DNA of 50,218 nt, taken from NCBI GenBank assembly GCA_944371325.1, contig CALVXO010000012.1, forward strand, positions 1 through 50,218, in the 5' to 3' direction. This document shows, piece after piece, positions 8,649 to 50,218 of this stretch. Within the stretch, counting starts at the first letter, position 1. Each line of letters starts with the position of its first letter. Under the pieces are notes generated by a model that saw nothing but the letters and a program-made list of their open reading frames with translations, was not told the DNA's origin and did not search any database. The stretch comes from an uncultured Bacilli bacterium. GTDB taxonomy: Bacteria > Bacillota_I > Bacilli_A > RF39 > UBA660. A program made the position numbers and the translations under genes.

Positions 8649-9524
8649 TCACTCTTTTACATTTAATATTTCTAAGATTCTATTTAAATCTGCTACATTG
8701 TTAAAAGATATAATTAATTTTTTATCTTTAACTTTAATTTTTGTATCTAACTTATCTCTTAATAAATCTTCAACATATTTATATTCACTATTTTCTTCTT
8801 TATTGTGTTTTTTTATTTTATTTTTTCTTTCTTCGTCAATTGTTATTTCTTCTGTTTCTCTAACAGGTATTTTATTTTCAACAATTTGTCTAGCATATTC
8901 TAACATTTTTTCTTCATCTTCTAATTTACTTAAAACTCTAGCATGGCCCATAGTTAATTGATTATTAACGATCATATCTTGAATTTCTTTTGGTAATCTT
9001 AATAACCCTAATATGTTAGTAATATGACTTCTACTTTTACTTACCTTATTACTCAATTCTTCTTGAGTAATATGTAATTTTTCAATCATTGATTTATAAG
9101 CTAAGGCTTCTTCTATTGCATTTAAATTTTCTCTTTGTAAATTTTCTAATAATGCAATTTCTATCATTTGTTCTTCAGAAAAATCTCTTACAATAGCTGG
9201 TATTGTAGTTAAGCCAGCTAATTTAGATGCTCTAAATCTTCTTTCACCAGCTACCAAATCATAACCTTTGATACTTCTTTTTACAATAATAGGTTGGAAT
9301 ACACCATTTTTTTTAATTGAATTTGCTAAATCATTTAGAGAATCTTCATCAAAAACTTTTCTAGGTTGATGTGGATTAGGTCTTATTTCATCTAAATTAA
9401 TTTCAATTATTTCTTCCTTAGGTGTTGTTTCATAAATTTGTTTTTCAAAGTTTTCAAAATCTAAATTTTCACTATTAAATAATTGTTCTAAGCCTCTACC
9501 TAGAGCTCTTTTTCTATTTTCCAT
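8649..9524 (-). CDS. parB: Chromosome partition protein ParB (Spo0J type)
   Basis: A 291-residue protein with all ParB parts: N-terminal ParA-contacting segment (RALGRGLEQLF), CTP-binding boxes GERRFRASK (about 94-102) and ENLQRENL, helix-turn-helix near 155-200, and a C-terminal dimerisation domain. In the specificity helices it has Arg165 and Gly193, the residue types that read parS in the ParB/Noc family (positions 173 and 201 of Caulobacter ParB). It therefore should bind the parS array at 49722-50214. It overlaps parA by 11 bp. ParB loads as a CTP clamp and recruits SMC. Confidence 0.95.
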   Translation of the reverse strand: MENRKRALGRGLEQLFNSENLDFENFEKQIYETTPKEEIIEINLDEIRPNPHQPRKVFDEDSLNDLANSIKKNGVFQPIIVKRSIKGYDLVAGERRFRASKLAGLTTIPAIVRDFSEEQMIEIALLENLQRENLNAIEEALAYKSMIEKLHITQEELSNKVSKSRSHITNILGLLRLPKEIQDMIVNNQLTMGHARVLSKLEDEEKMLEYARQIVENKIPVRETEEITIDEERKNKIKKHNKEENSEYKYVEDLLRDKLDTKIKVKDKKLIISFNNVADLNRILEILNVKE

Positions 9525-10299
9525 CGTGATCTATCACCTCTTTAGCTAAATTTAAATAAGCCATTGTTCCTCTATTTTTAGGATCATAGGCTAATATTGG
9601 TTTTCCATGACTTGGAGCCTCTGATATTTTTATTAATCTTGGAATTATTGTATCATAAACTTTTTCTTTAAAATAAGCTTTTATTTCTTCTACAACTTCT
9701 AATCCTAATATAGTTCTACTATCTAACATTGTTAACAATACCCCTTCAATATCTAGATTAGGATTTAAATCTTTTTGAATTAATAATATTGAATGTAATA
9801 ATTGAGTTATTCCTTCCAACGCAAAGAATTCACATTGTACAGGTATTATTACACTATTAGCTGCTGCTAAAGCATTAGTAGTTAAAATGCCTAAAGAAGG
9901 AGGACAATCAATAATTATATAATCAAATTTTTCCTTAGCAACATCTAAATACTTTTTTAATTGACTAGATTTATTAAAATTATGATCAATTCTACTTCTT
10001 TCCATCAATTCTATATCCGCTCCAGCTAAATTAATTGAAGCAGGTATAATATATAAATTTTTAAACTTAGTTTTTATTATAACTTCATCTAAACTAGCTC
10101 GATCTACTATTAAATCATAAATTGTTTTTTCATGTGAACTTTTACTTATTCCAACTCCAGTTGTACTATTTCCTTGACTATCTAAATCAACTAATAATAC
10201 TTTTTTCCCTAGTACACCTAAAGATGCAGATAAATTTATACTAGTAGTAGTTTTCCCAACACCACCTTTTTGATTAACTAAAGCTATAACTCTACCCAT
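9514..10299 (-). CDS. parA: Chromosome partition ATPase ParA (Soj)
   Basis: About 261 residues. It has the deviant Walker A motif QKGGVGKTTTSINL at the N-terminus and PPSLGILTTNAL (Walker B region). ParA works with ParB to move origins and also modulates DnaA in Bacillus. The ATG at 10297-10299 is preferred because GGTGATG lies directly upstream; two earlier in-frame ATGs would overlap that site. It is first in a parA-parB-mscS run. Confidence 0.95.
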   Translation of the reverse strand: MGRVIALVNQKGGVGKTTTSINLSASLGVLGKKVLLVDLDSQGNSTTGVGISKSSHEKTIYDLIVDRASLDEVIIKTKFKNLYIIPASINLAGADIELMERSRIDHNFNKSSQLKKYLDVAKEKFDYIIIDCPPSLGILTTNALAAANSVIIPVQCEFFALEGITQLLHSILLIQKDLNPNLDIEGVLLTMLDSRTILGLEVVEEIKAYFKEKVYDTIIPRLIKISEAPSHGKPILAYDPKNRGTMAYLNLAKEVIDHDGK

Positions 10300-10403
10300 T
10301 AACATCACCATTTTTCTACATATACTATTTTATCACATTTTAATTCAATTAGATAGTAGTAAATGATAAAAATATAATTTTTTATAATTGAATCATTTAA
10401 AAT

Positions 10404-32062: not shown

Positions 32063-33664
32063 TTATTTTTCAATTTTAAATATAACTTGATATGAATCTT
32101 CAAAATCTATTTCCTCAACATCTACTGTGAATCCATATTTTTCTAGTGTTGATTCACATTCTCTAATTGTATTTAAAGCGACTTTAATATTAGGAACAGC
32201 AGCTTTAATTGTTGGAGTAGGTGTTATTTCTGAAACATTATTAACTGGTTTAGTAAATGTTTCTACATTAATATTACCAACATTTAATGATGGTTCAATT
32301 GGTTGATCTATAACTGGTATATCTGTTGTTGTTGGAGCAATTGGTACATCATAAATTGGAGCAGTCGTTTGACTTGTTTGATGTACTTTTGGCATGCTTG
32401 GCGCATTAAATGTTTGTGCTTGAGTTGCTTGAGGTACTTCTGGCATACTTGGTATATCAAATGATGGTACTTGAGTTGCTTGAGGTACTTCTGGCATACT
32501 TGGTGCTTCAAATGACGGTACTTGAGTTGCTTGAGGTACTTCTGGCATACTTGGTGCTTCAAATGATGGTACTTGAGTTGCTTGAGGTACTTCTGGCATA
32601 CTTGGTATATCAAATGATGGTGCTTGAGTTGCTTGAGGTACTTCTGGCATACTTGGTGCTTCAAATGATGGTACTTGAGTTGCTTGAGGTACTTCTGGCA
32701 TACTTGGTGCTTCAAATGATGGTGCTTGAGTTGCTTGATTACTAGTAGTATTTGATTGTGCTGTGTTATCCATATTAGTAAAGAAATTTTCTAATTTAAA
32801 ATTATCTTCATTATTTTTTTGTTCAACTGGTTGATCAAAAAAATTAAAGAATTTTCCAGTTGGTTGATGTTGTGGTTGTTCTTCAACAACTGGTGCATTC
32901 GATTTCAATAATTGATCTACATTAGCAACAGGTCTTTCTGGTTTAATAATATCTTGCGCATTTTGTTCAATAGCATCAATATTCATAAATCCAGGATTAT
33001 TTACTTCATTTATTGCGGAATCAGGTATTTGAACAACTTCTTCTGGTTTATTTAATTCTTCATTTAACATTTTATCAATCTCCTCATCTGTTTTTCTAAC
33101 TGTTAATCTTTCTTTTATTATTCTATTTAACATTTCTACTTGTTGTTTTTCATTTTTCAATTTTAATAATGATCTGGCATGTCTTTCAGATATTTTATTT
33201 TCAAGTAAAGCTTCTTGAACATCATCTGATAAATTAAGTAATCTTAAAGTATTTGCTATAGCTGATTGTGATTTGCCAACTTTTTTGGCTAATTCTTCTT
33301 GATTTATATAGCCCATATCTAATATTTTTTTATAAGATACTGCTTTTTCAATTGGAGTTAAATCTTCTCTTTGAACATTTTCAATTAATGCAATTTCGAC
33401 ACTATCTTTATCATTTAATTCTGATATGATGGCAGGTATTGTTTGTTTTCCAGCAACTTTACTTGCTTTATATCTACGTTCTCCTGCAATTATTTCATAT
33501 TTATTACCAATTTGTCTTACTACTATTGGTTGAATTACTCCATATTTTTGAATTGATAAAGCTAGTTCATTGATAGCATTTTCATCAAATTTAATACGAG
33601 GTTGAAATCTATTTGGTAATACATCTGATAGATTCAATTCAACTACTTTTCTTTCATTTTGCAC
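32063..33664 (-). CDS. noc: Noc-like ParB family protein with a Pro/Gln-rich tandem repeat linker
   Basis: A 533-residue protein. Residues 1-170 are a ParB/Noc core: LPNRFQPR, the CTP boxes GERRYKASK and ENVQRED, and an HTH with GKSQSAIANTLRLLNL and ISERHARSL, closest to Bacillus Noc. It also sits next to rsmG as noc does. At the four positions that separate ParB from Noc it has Gln133, Thr139, Asn144 and Arg161: the two specificity residues are Noc-type, the other two are not. About 310-425 hold seven copies of a 17-residue repeat (PQATQVPSFEAPSMPEV), then a small C-terminal domain. The N-terminal amphipathic helix by which Noc binds membrane is not evident. Probably a nucleoid occlusion or origin-organising protein. 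Confidence 0.8.
   Translation of the reverse strand: MQNERKVVELNLSDVLPNRFQPRIKFDENAINELALSIQKYGVIQPIVVRQIGNKYEIIAGERRYKASKVAGKQTIPAIISELNDKDSVEIALIENVQREDLTPIEKAVSYKKILDMGYINQEELAKKVGKSQSAIANTLRLLNLSDDVQEALLENKISERHARSLLKLKNEKQQVEMLNRIIKERLTVRKTDEEIDKMLNEELNKPEEVVQIPDSAINEVNNPGFMNIDAIEQNAQDIIKPERPVANVDQLLKSNAPVVEEQPQHQPTGKFFNFFDQPVEQKNNEDNFKLENFFTNMDNTAQSNTTSNQATQAPSFEAPSMPEVPQATQVPSFEAPSMPEVPQATQAPSFDIPSMPEVPQATQVPSFEAPSMPEVPQATQVPSFEAPSMPEVPQATQVPSFDIPSMPEVPQATQAQTFNAPSMPKVHQTSQTTAPIYDVPIAPTTTDIPVIDQPIEPSLNVGNINVETFTKPVNNVSEITPTPTIKAAVPNIKVALNTIRECESTLEKYGFTVDVEEIDFEDSYQVIFKIEK
32381..32737 (-). repeat. Seven tandem 51-bp repeats inside the noc-like gene
   Basis: The units encode PQATQ[VA]PSF[ED][AI]PSMPEV with few changes. 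The length is a multiple of three, so copy number can change without frameshift. The repeat also creates spurious long open frames on both strands. Confidence 0.9.
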
Positions 33665-34440: not shown

Positions 34441-36286
34441 GATACTCCTTTTTTAAATATATATTTAATATTGATATATCGGCGGGATTTACACCACTTA
34501 TTCTAATTGCTTGGCCAATAGAAGTAGGGCGAATTTCATTTAATTTTTGACGTGCTTCACTAGCTAAATTAGTTATTTTATTATAATCAATATCATCTGG
34601 AATTTTTTTATTTTCTAAATTAATTAATTTTTGAGCTTCTTTTTCAGCTTTTTTAATATAACCTTCATATTTAATGTTTAATTCAACTTGTTCAATAATT
34701 TCATCATCATAATCAAAAGTATAATTCATTTTAGATAAAGTTATTTCTGGTCTTCTTAATAAATCATATAAGCTAATACCATCTTTTAAAGGTGTACTAC
34801 CTAATTTAATCAATAAATCATTATATGTAGGTGTAATTTTAACACTTTTTAATTTATCTTTTAATTCTTCAATTTTTCTTATTTTATCTAACAACTTATT
34901 ATGTCTTTCTTCATCAATTAAACCAACTTGGTATCCATATTCTCTTAATCTTAAATCGGCATTATCATGTCTTAATAATAACCTATATTCTGCACGAGAA
35001 GTTAATAATCGATATGGATCTCTTACACCTTTAGTAACTAAATCGTCAATTAAAACTCCAATATATGCTTCATTTCTTTTTAATATTAAAGGTTCTTTAT
35101 TTTCTAATTTTAAACTAGCATTTATACCTGCCATTAATCCTTGGCAAGCTGCTTCTTCGTAACCACTAGTACCATTTATTTGACCAGCTGTATATAAATT
35201 TTCAATTAGCTTTGTTTCTAATGTTCTTTTAATTTGAGTAGGGTAGATAGCATCATATTCAATAGCATAGGCATATTTATTAATTACTGCATGTTCCAAT
35301 CCTGGTAAACTATGAACCATTTGTTCTTGAACATCTTTAGGCATACTTGTTGAGAATCCTTGTAAATATATATCATCATAATATAAACTTTCTGGTTCTA
35401 AAAATAGTTGATGTCTTTCTTTATCTTTAAATCTTACTATTTTATCTTCAATAGAAGGACAATATCTTGGACCAATACCTGTTATATCATCTAATCCACC
35501 ATACATACTTGATTTATTTAAATTATCTAAAATTATTTTATGGGTTAGAGGAGTTGTATAAATTAAATGGCATGGAATTTGATCTTCTATTTTATACTGT
35601 GGATTATTATCGAAACTAAATGTATGATATACTGAATCACCATTTTCAATTTGAGTTTTAGAAAAATCAATACTATCTTTAGCTATTCTTTGTGGTGTTC
35701 CTGTTTTAAGTCTTATTATTTTAAAGCCATATTTTTTTAAATTATCACTTAAAAAGTTACTTGGCTTTTCGCCATGTGGTCCTTGTCTTGTTCTAGTATC
35801 ACCAATTAATATATCAGATTTTAAATAAGTACCAGTTGTTAAAATAACTGCTTTAGAAAATATTTTTTCACCTGTTTCAGTTGCAACACCTGTTACTTTA
35901 CCATCTTCAATTATTAAATCTTCAATTATTGCTTCTTTTAAAGTTAAGTTAGGTGTTCCATTTAATAATTTTAACATCTTCTGTGGATAAGTTATTTTAT
36001 CAGCTTGGGCACGTAGTGCTCTTACTGCAGGTCCTTTAGCATAATTTAACATCTTTATTTGTAATAAACTTTGATCTGCTATTTTACCCATAGCTCCACC
36101 TAAAGCATCTATTTCTCTTACAACAATGCCTTTAGCTGATCCACCTATTGAAGGATTACATGGCATTGTTGCTATATTATTAATTCTTCCTGTCACTAAT
36201 AATGTTTTGTGATTTTTTCTAGCACAAGCTAAAGCTGCTTCACACCCAGCATGGCCACCACCAACTACTATTACTTCATATTCCAT
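34427..36286 (-). CDS. mnmG: tRNA uridine-34 carboxymethylaminomethyl-modification enzyme MnmG
   Basis: About 619 residues. FAD motif VVGGGHAGCEAALACARK, the PCNPSIGGSAKG and GPRYCPSIEDK signatures, and the C-terminal MnmE-binding helical domain. With MnmE it builds the cmnm5 group on wobble U34. The ATG at 36286 has AGGTG upstream. It follows mnmE by 8 bp, so the partners are made from one transcript. Confidence 0.97.
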   Translation of the reverse strand: MEYEVIVVGGGHAGCEAALACARKNHKTLLVTGRINNIATMPCNPSIGGSAKGIVVREIDALGGAMGKIADQSLLQIKMLNYAKGPAVRALRAQADKITYPQKMLKLLNGTPNLTLKEAIIEDLIIEDGKVTGVATETGEKIFSKAVILTTGTYLKSDILIGDTRTRQGPHGEKPSNFLSDNLKKYGFKIIRLKTGTPQRIAKDSIDFSKTQIENGDSVYHTFSFDNNPQYKIEDQIPCHLIYTTPLTHKIILDNLNKSSMYGGLDDITGIGPRYCPSIEDKIVRFKDKERHQLFLEPESLYYDDIYLQGFSTSMPKDVQEQMVHSLPGLEHAVINKYAYAIEYDAIYPTQIKRTLETKLIENLYTAGQINGTSGYEEAACQGLMAGINASLKLENKEPLILKRNEAYIGVLIDDLVTKGVRDPYRLLTSRAEYRLLLRHDNADLRLREYGYQVGLIDEERHNKLLDKIRKIEELKDKLKSVKITPTYNDLLIKLGSTPLKDGISLYDLLRRPEITLSKMNYTFDYDDEIIEQVELNIKYEGYIKKAEKEAQKLINLENKKIPDDIDYNKITNLASEARQKLNEIRPTSIGQAIRISGVNPADISILNIYLKKEYHESR

Positions 36287-40526: not shown

Positions 40527-40676
40527 TTTTCCACATTTTATAAAGTTATCCACATTTTTATTAACAGTTGTGGAATTAATTATTAACATATTATTTTACA
40601 TGTGAATAGATTTATCCACAATTATGTGGAAAAGTAATATTTCCCAATTTTTTCAATTTGTTTGTTGTGTGGAAAA
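40527..40676. promoter_or_regulatory. oriC: oriC part 1: DnaA-box cluster upstream of dnaA
   Basis: Perfect TTATCCACA at 40546-40554 and 40612-40620, plus TTTTCCACA at 40527-40535 and, reversed, at 40625-40633 and 40668-40676. The surrounding stretch 40407-40754 is very AT-rich and has no gene. It also holds the dnaA promoter, which I cannot place with confidence. Confidence 0.85.
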
Positions 40677-40754: not shown

Positions 40755-42113
40755 ATGGATATCAATAGTATTTGGAAATCTTTTTTAGAAAAGATGGAAC
40801 AAAAATTAACACCAGTATTATATGATATGTGGTTTTCTGAAACTAAATTAGTAGAATTAAACGAGGAATATGCTAAAATATTAGTTCCAATGGCTGTTCA
40901 TAAGAAACATTTAAAAGAAAACTATATTGATTTAATTGAAAGTATTTTTACTGAAGTTACTGGTTCTATATTTAAATTTGAATTTGTTACGGAAGATGAA
41001 ATAAATAATGAAAGTATTCTAGACATTGATGAAATTGGTGTTCCAGAATCAGCTATATTTCAATCTAACTTAGATCCTAAATATACTTTTGAATCTTTTG
41101 TTTCAGGAAGTAGTAATAAATTTGCTAAAGCATCTGCCTTAGCAGTAGCAGAACAACCAGGTAGTATGTATAATCCGTTATTTATATATGGAAAAAGTGG
41201 ATTAGGAAAAACTCACCTAATGCATGCTATAGGTAATTATATAAAGGATAATAGTAGAAAAAAAGTTTTATATGTTACGGCTGAAACATTCGTAAATGAT
41301 TTTTTAAAAATATATAGAAAAGACAGTAATAATTTTGAAAATATTGACAGTTTTAAAGAAAAATATCGTAATGTTGATGTATTAATGATTGATGATATTC
41401 AATATTTGGAAATAGCTCATAAAACACAACAAGAATTTTTCAACACTTTTAATGATTTATATACAAATAATAAACAAATCATTATTGCATCAGATAGATC
41501 TCCAGATGATTTAAAAAAACTAGAAGAAAGATTAAGAACAAGATTTGTTTGGGGATTAATAGTTAATATTCTTCCACCAGATTATCAATTAAGAATAGAT
41601 ATTATTGATAGAAAAATAGATGGTAATAACTTAAATACTTTTTTTCCACAGGATGTTAAAGAATATATTGCAAATAATTGTACTACAGATATTAGAAAAC
41701 TTGAAGGAGCAATAACTAGAACAATTGCTTATGCTACTATTATGAATGGTTCAGATATTACATTAGAATTAGCAATGGACGCATTAAAAGATTATTTTGG
41801 AGGAAGTGTTATATCTAAAAATAAAATTGAACAAGTTCAACAAATTATAGCTAATAATTATAATATAAGTATTGAAGATATAAGAGGAAAAAGAAAATCA
41901 AACGATATTACAATTCCAAGACAAATTGCTATGTATATATGTAGAGTATATTTAAAAGAATCTTTACCTAAAATTGGAGCTGAATTTGGTGGAAAAGATC
42001 ATACTACAGTTATGCACGCTGTTAATAAAATAAAAAAAGAAATAGAATCTAATGATGAATTAAATATTGAAATTAACAAAGTTATTTCCCAACTACCGTG
42101 GATAAATCAATAA
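40755..42113 (+). CDS. dnaA: Chromosomal replication initiator DnaA
   Basis: A 452-residue protein with domain I (IWKSFLEKMEQKLTPVLYDMW in parts: WKSFLEKM, YDMWF), AAA+ domain with GKSGLGKTHLMHAIGNY and VLMIDDIQYL, and C-terminal DNA-binding domain with GGKDHTTVMHAV. It opens oriC. DnaA boxes flank the gene on both sides, so autoregulation is likely. RBS GGGTGAT precedes the ATG. Confidence 0.98.
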   Translation: MDINSIWKSFLEKMEQKLTPVLYDMWFSETKLVELNEEYAKILVPMAVHKKHLKENYIDLIESIFTEVTGSIFKFEFVTEDEINNESILDIDEIGVPESAIFQSNLDPKYTFESFVSGSSNKFAKASALAVAEQPGSMYNPLFIYGKSGLGKTHLMHAIGNYIKDNSRKKVLYVTAETFVNDFLKIYRKDSNNFENIDSFKEKYRNVDVLMIDDIQYLEIAHKTQQEFFNTFNDLYTNNKQIIIASDRSPDDLKKLEERLRTRFVWGLIVNILPPDYQLRIDIIDRKIDGNNLNTFFPQDVKEYIANNCTTDIRKLEGAITRTIAYATIMNGSDITLELAMDALKDYFGGSVISKNKIEQVQQIIANNYNISIEDIRGKRKSNDITIPRQIAMYICRVYLKESLPKIGAEFGGKDHTTVMHAVNKIKKEIESNDELNIEINKVISQLPWINQ

Positions 42114-43392: not shown

Positions 43393-43437
43393 TTCGACAA
43401 AATTCGACAAAATTCGACATATCACTTGTGGTATAAG
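43393..43437 (+). promoter_or_regulatory. Tandem 10-bp repeats and extended -10 promoter of the comK-like gene
   Basis: TTCGACAAAA is repeated at 43393 and 43403, with a third TTCGACA at 43413. TGGTATAAG (extended -10) is at 43429-43437. The repeats lie one helical turn apart, about where a -35 box or activator would bind. Confidence 0.5.
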
Positions 43438-43473: not shown

Positions 43474-43938
43474 ATGATAGAAGAGTATTTTATTAACGAA
43501 GATACATTATTATTAGTACCAAAAGACAAAAAGACAACTAAAATATTTGATATTAATGGAGAATATACAATTAAAAAAAATATATTTAATGTTGTGGATG
43601 AAAGTTGTCAATACTATGGTAGTAATTATAATGGAAGGTATGTAAGTGCGAAAAAGACATTAGATATGGATTATAAATTACCTATTATAATTGACGAAGT
43701 TAAAGAAGTTGTTTTATTTCCCACATGTTCACCCAAATTAAATAATTGTATTTGGATATGTGTTAATAATGTAGAAAATTATAGCAAAAATAAGAAAAAT
43801 TCAGTTATAAAATTCACTAATGGCGAAACACATGAAGTCAATATTACTATTAATGTTTTAGAAAATCAAATTTTAAGAGCAACAATGTTATTAATGAAGT
43901 TAAAAAAAAGAAAATCTAATCCAAAAAAAATAGGCTAA
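43474..43938 (+). CDS. comK: ComK family competence transcription factor (short form)
   Basis: A 154-residue protein with clear ComK segments: VVDESCQYYGSNYNGRYVSA, KLPIIIDEVKEVVLFPT, CIWICVNNV, IKFTNGETHEVNI and ENQILRATMLLMK. ComK of Bacillus (about 192 residues) activates competence genes by binding AT-rich K-boxes. This protein ends just after the conserved core, so the C-terminal tail with the FMLYPK motif used by MecA for degradation is missing. It has its own promoter, strong RBS AGGGGGTG and terminator, and occupies the place where yaaA usually lies between dnaN and recF. Confidence 0.83.
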   Translation: MIEEYFINEDTLLLVPKDKKTTKIFDINGEYTIKKNIFNVVDESCQYYGSNYNGRYVSAKKTLDMDYKLPIIIDEVKEVVLFPTCSPKLNNCIWICVNNVENYSKNKKNSVIKFTNGETHEVNITINVLENQILRATMLLMKLKKRKSNPKKIG

Positions 43939-47100: not shown

Positions 47101-49539
47101 ATGGATAAATTAGAACAAAGAAATATAGTAAATGAAGTAGAAAAATCTTTTCTTGAATATTCAATGAGTGTTATAGTATCTCGTGCTTTACCAGATTTAA
47201 GAGATGGTTTAAAACCAGTTCATAGACGTATTTTATATACAATGTTTGAAGACAATTTAACTCCAGATAAACCTTTTAGAAAAAGTGCAACAACAGTTGG
47301 AGCTGTTTTAGGTAGATACCATCCACATGGAGATACATCTGTTTATGATGCAATGGTTCGTATGGCTCAAGATTTTAGTTATCGCTACGTTTTAGTAGAA
47401 GGTCATGGTAACTTTGGATCAATAGATGGTGATGGAGCTGCAGCTTATCGTTATACTGAAGCAAGATTATCTAAATTATCTCTAGAATTGTTAAGAGATA
47501 TAAATAAAAATACAATTGATTTTATGCCTAACTTTGATAATACAACTAAAGAACCTGTTGTATTACCAAGTAGATTTCCAAATATTTTAGTAAGTGGAAC
47601 GATGGGTATTGCTGTAGGTATGGCAACTAATATCCCACCACATAATTTAGGGGAAGTAATAGATGGTTGCGTTGCTTATATTGATAATAATGATATAACA
47701 ATACCAGAATTGATGGAATATATTAAAGGACCTGATTTTCCAACTGCTGCTACAATTTTGGGAAATAGCGGTATTAAAAAGGCTTATGAGACAGGAAAAG
47801 GTACAATTACTATTCGAAGTAAAGTAGAAATAGTTGAAAATAATAATAAAACACAGATTATTGTTACTGAATTACCTTATCAAGTAAATAAAAAAGCATT
47901 ACAAGAAAGAATAGCTGAATTAGTAAGAGATAAAATAATAGATGGTATTAGCGATCTACATGATGAAACTAACTTAAAAAATGGTATTAAATTGGTTATC
48001 ACTCTAAAAAAAGAAGCAAATGCAAATGTTGTACTTAACAATTTGTTCAAACATACTCAATTGCAAACAACATTTGGTATTATTTTCTTAATGTTAGATG
48101 AAGGTCAACCAAAAATATTAAATTTAAAAGAAATTATTTCAAAATATGTTGATTATCAAAAAATAATTATCATTAGAAGAACAAAATTTGAATTAGATAA
48201 AGCAGAAAAAAGAGTTCATATCTTAGAAGGATATAAAATTGCTTTAGATAACATTGATGAAGTTATTAAAATTATTAAAAATGCTGAAAGTGATGTTATT
48301 GCTAAACAACAATTAATGAATAGATTTAATTTAACTGATATTCAATCTGACGCTATTTTAGAAATGAAGTTAAGAAGATTAACTGGATTAGAAAGAAGTA
48401 AAATAGAAGAAGAATTAAAAGAATTATTAGCATTAATTGATGAATTAAAATCTATTTTAGCTAGTGATGAAAAGATTTTAAATATAATTAAAGAAGAATT
48501 AATTGCTATTAAAGAAAAATATAGCGATGAAAGAAGAACTCATATTGATATGACAGCTGTTGAATATATTGAAGATGAATCATTAATTCCTGTTGAAGAT
48601 ATAGTTGTAACTTTAACAAATAAAGGATATATTAAACGTATTACTACTGAAACATATCGTACACAAAATAGAGGTGGCGTAGGAGTTAAAGGTATGACAA
48701 CAAATGAAGATGATTTTGTTGAAAATATTATATCAATGACTACTCATGATTATTTGTTATTCTTTACAAATAAAGGTAAAGTATATCGTATTAAAGGTTA
48801 TGAAGTACCACTTTATTCTCGTCAATCTAAAGGATTACCTATTATTAATTTATTATCATTAGATAAAGATGAAGTTGTTAAAGTTATGCTTAAAGTAAGT
48901 AATAATGATGATAATAATTATCTTGTATTTTGTACACAAAAAGGCTTAATTAAAAGGACAAACATCAGTGAATTTGAAAATATAAGAGCAAATGGTAAGA
49001 TAGCAATTACTTTAAAAGAAGATGATGAATTGATAGCAGTTAAGAAAACAACTGGTGAAAATGAAATTATTATGGCTGCATCAAATGGTCGTATGATCAG
49101 ATTTGACGAAAAAGAAATTAGAGTCATGGGTAGAACTGCTTCGGGTGTTCGAGGAATAGATATTGGTGATGGTGTAGCTGTTGGATGTGAAATAGCCGAA
49201 CCAAATCAAGAAATATTAGTTGTTACTGAAAATGGCTATGGTAAAAGAACTGATGTTGAAGAATACCGTATGACACATCGTGGCAGTAAAGGTGTTAAAG
49301 GATTAAATGTAACTGAAAAAAATGGTAATATAGTTTCATTTAAAACAGTTCATGGTGATGAAGACTTAATGATTATAACTAATAATGGAATAATTATTAG
49401 ATTGCCAATAGAACAAGTATCTACTACTGGTAGAGTTGCACAAGGTGTTAGATTGATCAATCTTAAAGATGGTCAAAAAGTTTCAACAGTAGCTATGATT
49501 AAGAAAGAAGAATCAAATGATATATCAGAAGAACAATAA
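47101..49539 (+). CDS. gyrA: DNA gyrase subunit A
   Basis: An 812-residue protein: winged helix with catalytic Tyr118 (AAAYRYTE), tower, coiled coil, and a C-terminal beta-pinwheel with the gyrase-type box [10 protein letters not shown]. The helix IV region reads [15 protein letters not shown], with Thr79 where E. coli has Ser83. It ends with an acidic tail. A terminator containing the stop codon follows, then the parS-like array. Confidence 0.98.
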
Positions 49540-49721: not shown

Positions 49722-50214
49722 TGTTTCACGTGGAACTATAAATAATAAAATAACCAATGTTTCACGTGAAACTATAAATAATAAAACAAATCAATGTTTC
49801 ACGTGGAACTATAAATAATAAAATAAGTTAATGTTTCACGTGGAACTATAAATAATAAAATAAATCAATGTTTCACGTGGAACTATAAATAATAAAATAA
49901 ATCAATGTTTCACGTGGAACTATAATAATAAAATAAATCAATGTTTCACGTGAAACTATAAATAATAAAACAAATCAATGTTTCACGTGGAACTATAAAT
50001 AATAAAATAAGTTAATGTTCCACGTGGAACTATAAATAATAAAATAACCAATGTTTCACGTGGAACTATAAATAATAAAACAAATCAATGTTTCACGTGG
50101 AACTATAAATAATAAAACAAATCAATGTTTCACGTGGAACTATAAATAATAAAATAAATCAATGTTTCACGTGGAACTATAATAATAAAATAAATCAATG
50201 TTTCACGTGAAACT
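49722..50214. repeat. parS: Tandem array of 14 parS-like centromere sites, continuing past the window edge
   Basis: Sixteen-base sites start at 49722, 49758, 49795, 49832, 49869, 49906, 49942, 49979, 50016, 50052, 50089, 50126, 50163 and 50199. Ten read TGTTTCACGTGGAACT, three TGTTTCACGTGAAACT and one TGTTCCACGTGGAACT. The Bacillus parS consensus is TGTTNCACGTGAAACA. Spacers are 20-21 bp of near-identical AT-rich sequence (ATAAATAATAAAATAAATCAA or variants), so sites recur every 36-37 bp. ParB (8649-9524) is the expected ligand. Confidence 0.93.
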
Positions 50215-50218
50215 ATAA

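Follow-up and report, generated by a model that had tools for sequence, protein, structure and literature searches.

Tandem parS-type sites between gyrA and dnaX as the probable centromere of an uncultured Bacilli bacterium

Bacilli are named among the few lineages with scattered parS sites (PMC8357415, in the extract available). What, then, is a row of such sites doing beside gyrA in an uncultured member of this class, and could it serve as the centromere of the chromosome? The window, i.e., the whole 50,218-bp stretch of DNA analysed here, ends inside this row (Table 1). Its 14 parS-type sites conform to TGTTYCACGTGRAACT and span positions 49722–50214 at distances of 36 or 37 bp, in a single register and direction. 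With up to three mismatches to the parS consensus, the window contains 15 matches, namely the 14 array sites and an unrelated three-mismatch match at 35873. Shuffled windows gave a mean of 0.27 matches, and 15 were reached in 0 of 100 shuffles. Tandem Repeats Finder described the array as 13.6 copies of a 37-bp unit with 93% matches. The dense array beside gyrA that the original prediction had proposed was thus recovered by both motif scan and repeat search.

Table 1. Positions of the array, its contig junction and the genes discussed in the text (window coordinates unless contig C8 is named).
Feature	Location	Strand	Evidence
Tandem parS-type array, 14 sites at 36–37 bp, ends at contig end	49718..50218	+	motif scan, Tandem Repeats Finder
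First parS-type site, TGTTTCACGTGGAACT, 182 bp past gyrA stop codon	49722..49737	+	motif scan
Variant site TGTTCCACGTGGAACT, sole site with C at position 5	50016..50031	+	motif scan
Last site of the window, TGTTTCACGTGAAACT	50199..50214	+	motif scan
Last 77 bp of the window, identical to first 77 bp of contig C8 and to window 49885–49961; contig junction inside array	50142..50218	+	sequence identity
Bacterial small SRP RNA	C8 233–331		RF00169
ParB, 291 aa, likely reader of the array (predicted)	8649..9524	-	PF02195, PF17762; TIGR00180 above cut-off
ParA-type ATPase gene, upstream of parB	9514..10311	-	PF13614 228.5 bits, PF01656 89.5 bits, above cut-offs
Second ParB-family protein, Noc-like, 533 aa, beside rsmG	32063..33664	-	PF02195, PF17762
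gyrA, left neighbour of the array	47101..49539	+	NF004043 1185.6 bits, cut-off 902
dnaA, marks likely origin region ~9 kb before the array	40755..42113	+	PF00308, PF08299

The window is the whole contig C12 of an assembly whose 77 contigs total 1.57 Mb, with 92.5% completeness and 5.2% contamination. As had been predicted, the array continues past the window edge, since contig C8 opens with the 77 bp that close the window and then carries two more sites. C8 starts with 4 sites in all; once the overlap is removed, the joined array comprises 16 sites, not 18, a count obtained by joining two contigs whose ends both fall inside the repeat. The assembly break within the array would be explained by the renewed occurrence of the 77-mer at 49885. 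Past the array, C8 continues with the SRP RNA, tadA, dnaX and recR, the three protein genes all scoring above NCBIfam cut-offs. A DnaA box, TGTGGATAA, lies at C8 (locus L019) 155–163, 24 bp past the start of the last parS site. Exact boxes near the array were found at 5 further of 17 genus loci, our own locus being one of them again, too few for us to regard the box as a feature of the array.

All 14 sites of the window have one to three mismatches to TGTTTCACGTGAAACA, and every one keeps the GTTNCACGTGNAAC core. The joined array is made up of TGTTTCACGTGGAACT (n=11), TGTTTCACGTGAAACT (n=4) and TGTTCCACGTGGAACT (n=1), with T as the final base in all 16 sites where the consensus TGTTNCACGTGAAACA has A. 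Sequence changes among the sites of the window fall at the two positions on which the consensus puts little or no constraint. In the window, the spacers are 94% AT with a mean identity of 0.92; the joined array contains six spacer sequences among 15, which sort into the three classes distinguished in the original prediction. Spacers that are repeated and alike to this degree are not unique, and a CRISPR array was therefore discarded. The partly repeated order of spacer classes described earlier is present as well, but the growth by block duplication that had been read from it did not stand: no stretch of more than 2 identical units recurs, and as long a repeat was reached in 6570 of 20000 shuffles of unit order, so that it does not exceed chance.

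The array likely lies close to the replication origin, whose place we infer from dnaA, ~9 kb away, and from DnaA boxes at 40546, 40612, 42170 and 42179; gyrA adjoins the array directly. The same region holds a ComK-family gene between dnaN and recF (window 43474–43938; PF06338, 132 bits). Between dnaN and this comK-like gene, 43393–43419 consists of 2.7 perfect copies of TTCGACAAAA, a unit that we take to resemble a Spo0A box.

Only two ParB-family genes are found in the genome. Neither adjoins the array, and parAB is located ~39 kb away on the same contig. The shorter protein, ParB, has Spo0J (6sdk) as its best PDB match, and the alignment shows R173/G201-type residues. Four residues tell parS-binding ParB from NBS-binding Noc, with Gln173, Arg201 and a lysine at 179 or 184 marking Noc (PMC7383237, in the section at hand). 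With the register counted from printed alignments, these four are R, I, R and G in ParB and Q, T, N and R in the Noc-like protein. By its aligned residues and the positions given in that section, ParB is thus of the parS type at both base-reading positions. The Noc-like protein has Noc-type Gln and Arg at 173 and 201, whereas its residues at 179 and 184 are Thr and Asn; the same section of PMC7383237 describes lysine as needed in its test protein, and no lysine is present here. The Noc-like protein scored 291.9 bits with TIGR04285 against a cut-off of 315, and its best PDB matches are Noc structures 7ng0 and 7nfu. It also features a long low-complexity linker of 17-aa repeats before its C-terminal part (window 32369–32738), encoded by 7.3 copies of a 51-bp unit with 91% matches (Tandem Repeats Finder), and two Phe-rich stretches that might contact the membrane. 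The ParA-type ATPase gene does not reach the cut-offs of the NCBIfam ParA-type models that it matches. The genome also codes for SMC and ScpB, with a second, partial ScpB match on contig C47.

A scan of the whole assembly for other parS sites, proposed together with the original prediction, gave none off the array within two mismatches. Matches with one or two mismatches number 17 in the 1.57 Mb and all are array sites; there is none with zero mismatches. At three mismatches, one array site and 12 others were found, compared with 4 for a reversed control pattern. One of the 12, at C20:3731, has its CACGTG core intact. Further parS sites may lie in DNA missing from the assembly, given its completeness and contamination.

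Relatives in the genus share this layout. The motif GTTYCACGTGRAAC was found in 17 of 18 genus genomes, our own included, the sole exception being G016, which is 73% complete and gave no match. All 17 fetched genus loci are flanked by gyrA and/or tadA–dnaX. The period varies with the species and amounts to 27–28, 34–36 or 36–38 bp; genome G002 is looser, with three sites at 67–70 bp, and of the three sites in G011, one falls within the fetched locus. Among G001–G007, matches lie on one contig in G002 and G004 and on two contigs in the others; for G001, G003, G005, G006 and G007, the second contig proved to be the other side of the same gene junction (5/5 checked). The search among relatives that had been suggested with the original prediction hence found the layout to be common and to keep to one gene junction.

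In the family, three or more sites at 24–54 bp occur in 51 of 291 genomes and in 40 of 150 genera, under a pattern that admits only this spacing, so that the search itself sets the limits of the period. The remaining 240 genomes have no three tandem sites under the same pattern, and the block is therefore not needed in this family. Array size reaches 27 sites in G200, at 41–44 bp on two contig ends for which no overlap was found, 19 in a single run in G008, and 18 in G042 after removal of an 81-bp contig overlap. Across genus and family, gyrA, tadA or dnaX was present in the fetched flanks at 77 of 77 loci checked, comprising 17 genus loci, 42 from family and order draws (four of them genus loci again) and 18 hand-chosen regions. 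At seven loci, some or all of the sites are found between tadA and dnaX or within the dnaX gene (L159, L168, L192, L193, L194, L235 and L241). In L193 (1497–1612; G055), three parS-type sites lie within the dnaX coding sequence, in an apparent charged linker. The 18 chosen regions divide into 12 looser clusters or pairs (L229–L237, L244–L246) and 6 tight arrays; one looser cluster, in G126, has 9 sites in 1.8 kb. Among relatives, this locus thus varies from a loosely spaced pair of sites to a tight array of 27. The strict 16-mer TGTTYCACGTGRAACA was present in at least 119 of 146 family genomes, a lower bound, as genus-type sites are missed (0 in G000). Among the 20 of these genomes with listed positions, all strict sites lay on one contig within 1.8 kb in 14, sites lay on two contigs in 4, and 2 had a single site. 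Periods of ~26, 28, 35, 37, 39 and 43 bp share no common multiple of ~10.5 bp, and a filament on one face of the helix was hence dropped as an explanation of the spacing.

Outside the family, arrays become rare. A class-level draw gave arrays in 4 of 43 genomes of this family versus 1 of 253 from other families; an order-level draw gave 26 of 241, all from the one family and thus no outside comparison. The sole non-family array in the class draw, in G556 (L199), has three sites and lies upstream of tadA–dnaX; going by this genome, the gene place of the array may predate the family. Genomes of named species hold at least 118 stretches with three tandem sites. Among the matches listed, 3 of 9 Bacilli-titled records carry a run of at least seven sites; none of the 109 others does, their longest run being 6. 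Short parS clusters are therefore seen across phyla, and long tight arrays, among the matches listed, only in this lineage. Viral contigs contain 24 parS stretches with a longest run of 8; this longest one (L269) has five of its seven gaps at exactly 38 bp. The top results of our literature search, which left most subscription journals outside, named no publication that describes arrays of this kind for these bacteria.

From the sequence evidence, we consider it probable that the tandem parS block between gyrA and SRP RNA–tadA–dnaX is the centromere of the chromosome, at which predicted multi-site loading of ParB clamps would pass the origin to ParA and SMC. This reading is favoured because no other parS lies within two mismatches, because the genome codes for a parS-type ParB, a ParA-type ATPase, SMC and ScpB, and because relatives have the same gene junction and keep the motif as spacers change. 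The block is a conserved, unusual form of a known element, a chromosomal parS condensed into a tandem block. ParB would bind the array, each site would act as a separate loading point for ParB clamps, and the block would lift the local clamp-loading rate, in the manner of the super-loader for ParB clamps and SMC that the original prediction had suggested. As a single block, it could offer one handle for ParA and one entry point for SMC. Slippage or recombination would expand and homogenise it, like satellite DNA. In the extract of PMC8299390 available, B. subtilis ParB condensed DNA with 7, 13 and 26 parS sites, but not with 1, 2 or 4; force rose with parS number, which its authors tied to the loading rate. 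The same extract allows that the threshold of 5–7 sites stems from the applied force, one parS being enough in vivo. Scattered parS sites are argued to raise SMC collisions and clustered strong parS sites to avoid them, according to the portion of PMC8357415 consulted.

The alternative that best survives, although we judge it unlikely, is a mostly neutral expansion, in which slippage in AT-rich DNA multiplied a small number of functional parS sites, or a single one, and left the additional copies as passengers without function. The AT-rich spacers, which are alike within an array, agree with it, as do the wide variation of copy number among relatives, the many family genomes with few sites and the statement in the above extract of PMC8299390 that one parS is sufficient for segregation. 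A passenger array, however, should lose its motifs at the rate of its spacers. We compared the two in 19 arrays from 17 genomes, with both contig ends used for G200 and G042, in which 194 of 205 units are intact. Departures from the motif affect only 16 of 2460 core positions, versus about 430 of 4396 spacer positions that differ from the most central spacer of each array (Fisher p ~1e-64). This value overstates the certainty, given the relatedness of units, the definition of sites by at most three mismatches, the choice of arrays with perfect sites and two G042 units counted twice. Core changes far rarer than spacer changes argue against passengers, and the motifs, which had been predicted to be functional, look as if kept by selection. 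The same gene junction at every locus checked likewise speaks against neutral expansion.

The motif is hence kept while spacers and unit length change between species. Among 15 genus arrays, spacer identity was 0.864 within and 0.652 between arrays, with 0.543 for shuffled letters, and the within-array value exceeded the best between-array value in 8 of 15 only. Eleven arrays of other genera gave a between-array identity of 0.637 (largest 0.789) against 0.563 when shuffled. Such a pattern agrees with a turnover of repeats that retain some trace of their ancestry, evening-out within species being partly supported only.

We regard as very unlikely that the palindromes mainly act as terminator or RNA hairpins between gyrA and the SRP RNA, or as a ParB barrier that shields promoters. 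The block does sit between the gyrA end and the SRP RNA gene, and P. aeruginosa ParB near parS is reported to repress some nearby genes (PMC7022226, in the extract seen). The conserved letters are, however, the parS letters, with changes in the window confined to the free or nearly free consensus positions, and three loci have their sites in other places, within dnaX at L193 and entirely between tadA and dnaX at L159 and L194. Even less credible is an assembly artefact that repeated one true parS unit, as might be suspected from a contig that ends within the array and a 77-mer common to both contig ends. The units differ, with nine types among the 15 of the joined array, and relatives hold whole arrays that are flanked by genes on both sides within one contig (19 sites in G008, 11 in G047). 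Least plausible of all is the insertion into the chromosome of a centromere from a plasmid or phage: the layout recalls sopC-type plasmid centromeres and viral contigs carry the short parS clusters described above, but 80% coverage of the array was reached by none of the 7 plasmid and 31 phage records matched at an E-value limit of 10, even the best of these matches being weak, the place between housekeeping genes is common across the family, and no ParB-family gene adjoins the array.

With the parS block as a centromere, the nearest relation is to the chromosomal ParABS system of B. subtilis, which is similar in motif type, nearness to dnaA, parS-type ParB, ParA-type ATPase and SMC–ScpB. Where the sites are scattered in Bacilli (PMC8357415, in its extract), those found here within two mismatches all form one tandem block. 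The closest published case we found is Myxococcus xanthus, with 22 parS sites in 3 kb (PMC3899335) or 24 (PMC3778016), as far as the excerpts of these papers go. There, too, many chromosomal parS sites are grouped near the origin, as are the 16 joined sites here and the 27 in G200. By those excerpts, the M. xanthus cluster has about one site per 140 bp on both strands, whereas here there is one per 36–37 bp, in one direction and with near-identical spacers. Synthetic DNA with 7 to 39 clustered parS sites was made in the laboratory to raise the signal, in the extract of PMC8299390, while the present array is natural.

Among plasmids, sopC of plasmid F consists of direct repeats of about 40 bp with one ParB-type site each, and is thus likewise a tandem array of such sites. 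The present array differs in that it lies on the chromosome between gyrA and tadA–dnaX, has the chromosomal parS motif, is ~39 kb from parAB and has no par operon of its own alongside. In eukaryotic satellite centromeres, units are alike within a species and differ in length and spacer between species, with the protein-binding box kept. These extend over megabases, whereas the array spans hundreds of bp and evening-out within species is partly supported only.

Noc-type motifs (NBS) add a further aspect to this locus in the family, with counts in relatives covering array loci and regions. The perfect NBS WTTTCCCGGGAAAW is present in 11 of the 18 chosen regions and in 8 of 38 further family loci. 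The 18 regions contain 25 NBS in 78,662 bp, compared with 0.0013 expected under a first-order model, and 17 of these NBS have a parS within 500 bp. In G200 (L238 1664–1900), four NBS, 74–75 bp apart, precede the parS array; G167 (L167 61–219) has tandem NBS, the spacing in both genomes being 71–75 bp. G126 (L229 2478–3750) repeats a parS–NBS module four times, with the NBS 27–28 bp after the parS start. Among named genomes, NBS were found in 4 of 118 listed loci, three of them Bacilli-titled, among the matches listed. At L231–L234, L244 and L245, an NBS lies within or at the end of the dnaX frame, near 146–310, at a similar distance from tadA.

None of the 17 loci from the genus of the window contains an NBS. 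Our own assembly contains a single perfect NBS, at C8:7712, and a one-mismatch NBS at C8:2011, with 1 match for a reversed control; the latter (L019 2011) is the dnaX-associated NBS of this genome. With no NBS at these loci and the perfect NBS 7.7 kb into C8, we rejected NBS as a part of the array itself. The motif positions suggest that some family members have a double locus for ParB and Noc, which is not a feature of the array in the window. More tentatively, the family centromere could be a satellite-like point locus that changes fast while its gene junction stays fixed, in many members double, with parS/ParB and NBS/Noc arrays interleaved or neighbouring; we hold this to be possible, though rather less than an even prospect. 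If it is true, Noc would act at the origin and couple origin position to membrane or division, and would not coat most of the chromosome.

If the parS block is a working centromere, it would provide a natural experiment on how parS number and density relate to ParB loading, condensation and SMC entry, which so far have been addressed with synthetic DNA. Relatives with two to 27 sites at one locus would allow parS dose to be compared without engineering. A working centromere of this kind would, moreover, change in the manner of satellite DNA, so that ideas on centromere turnover would become testable in bacteria.
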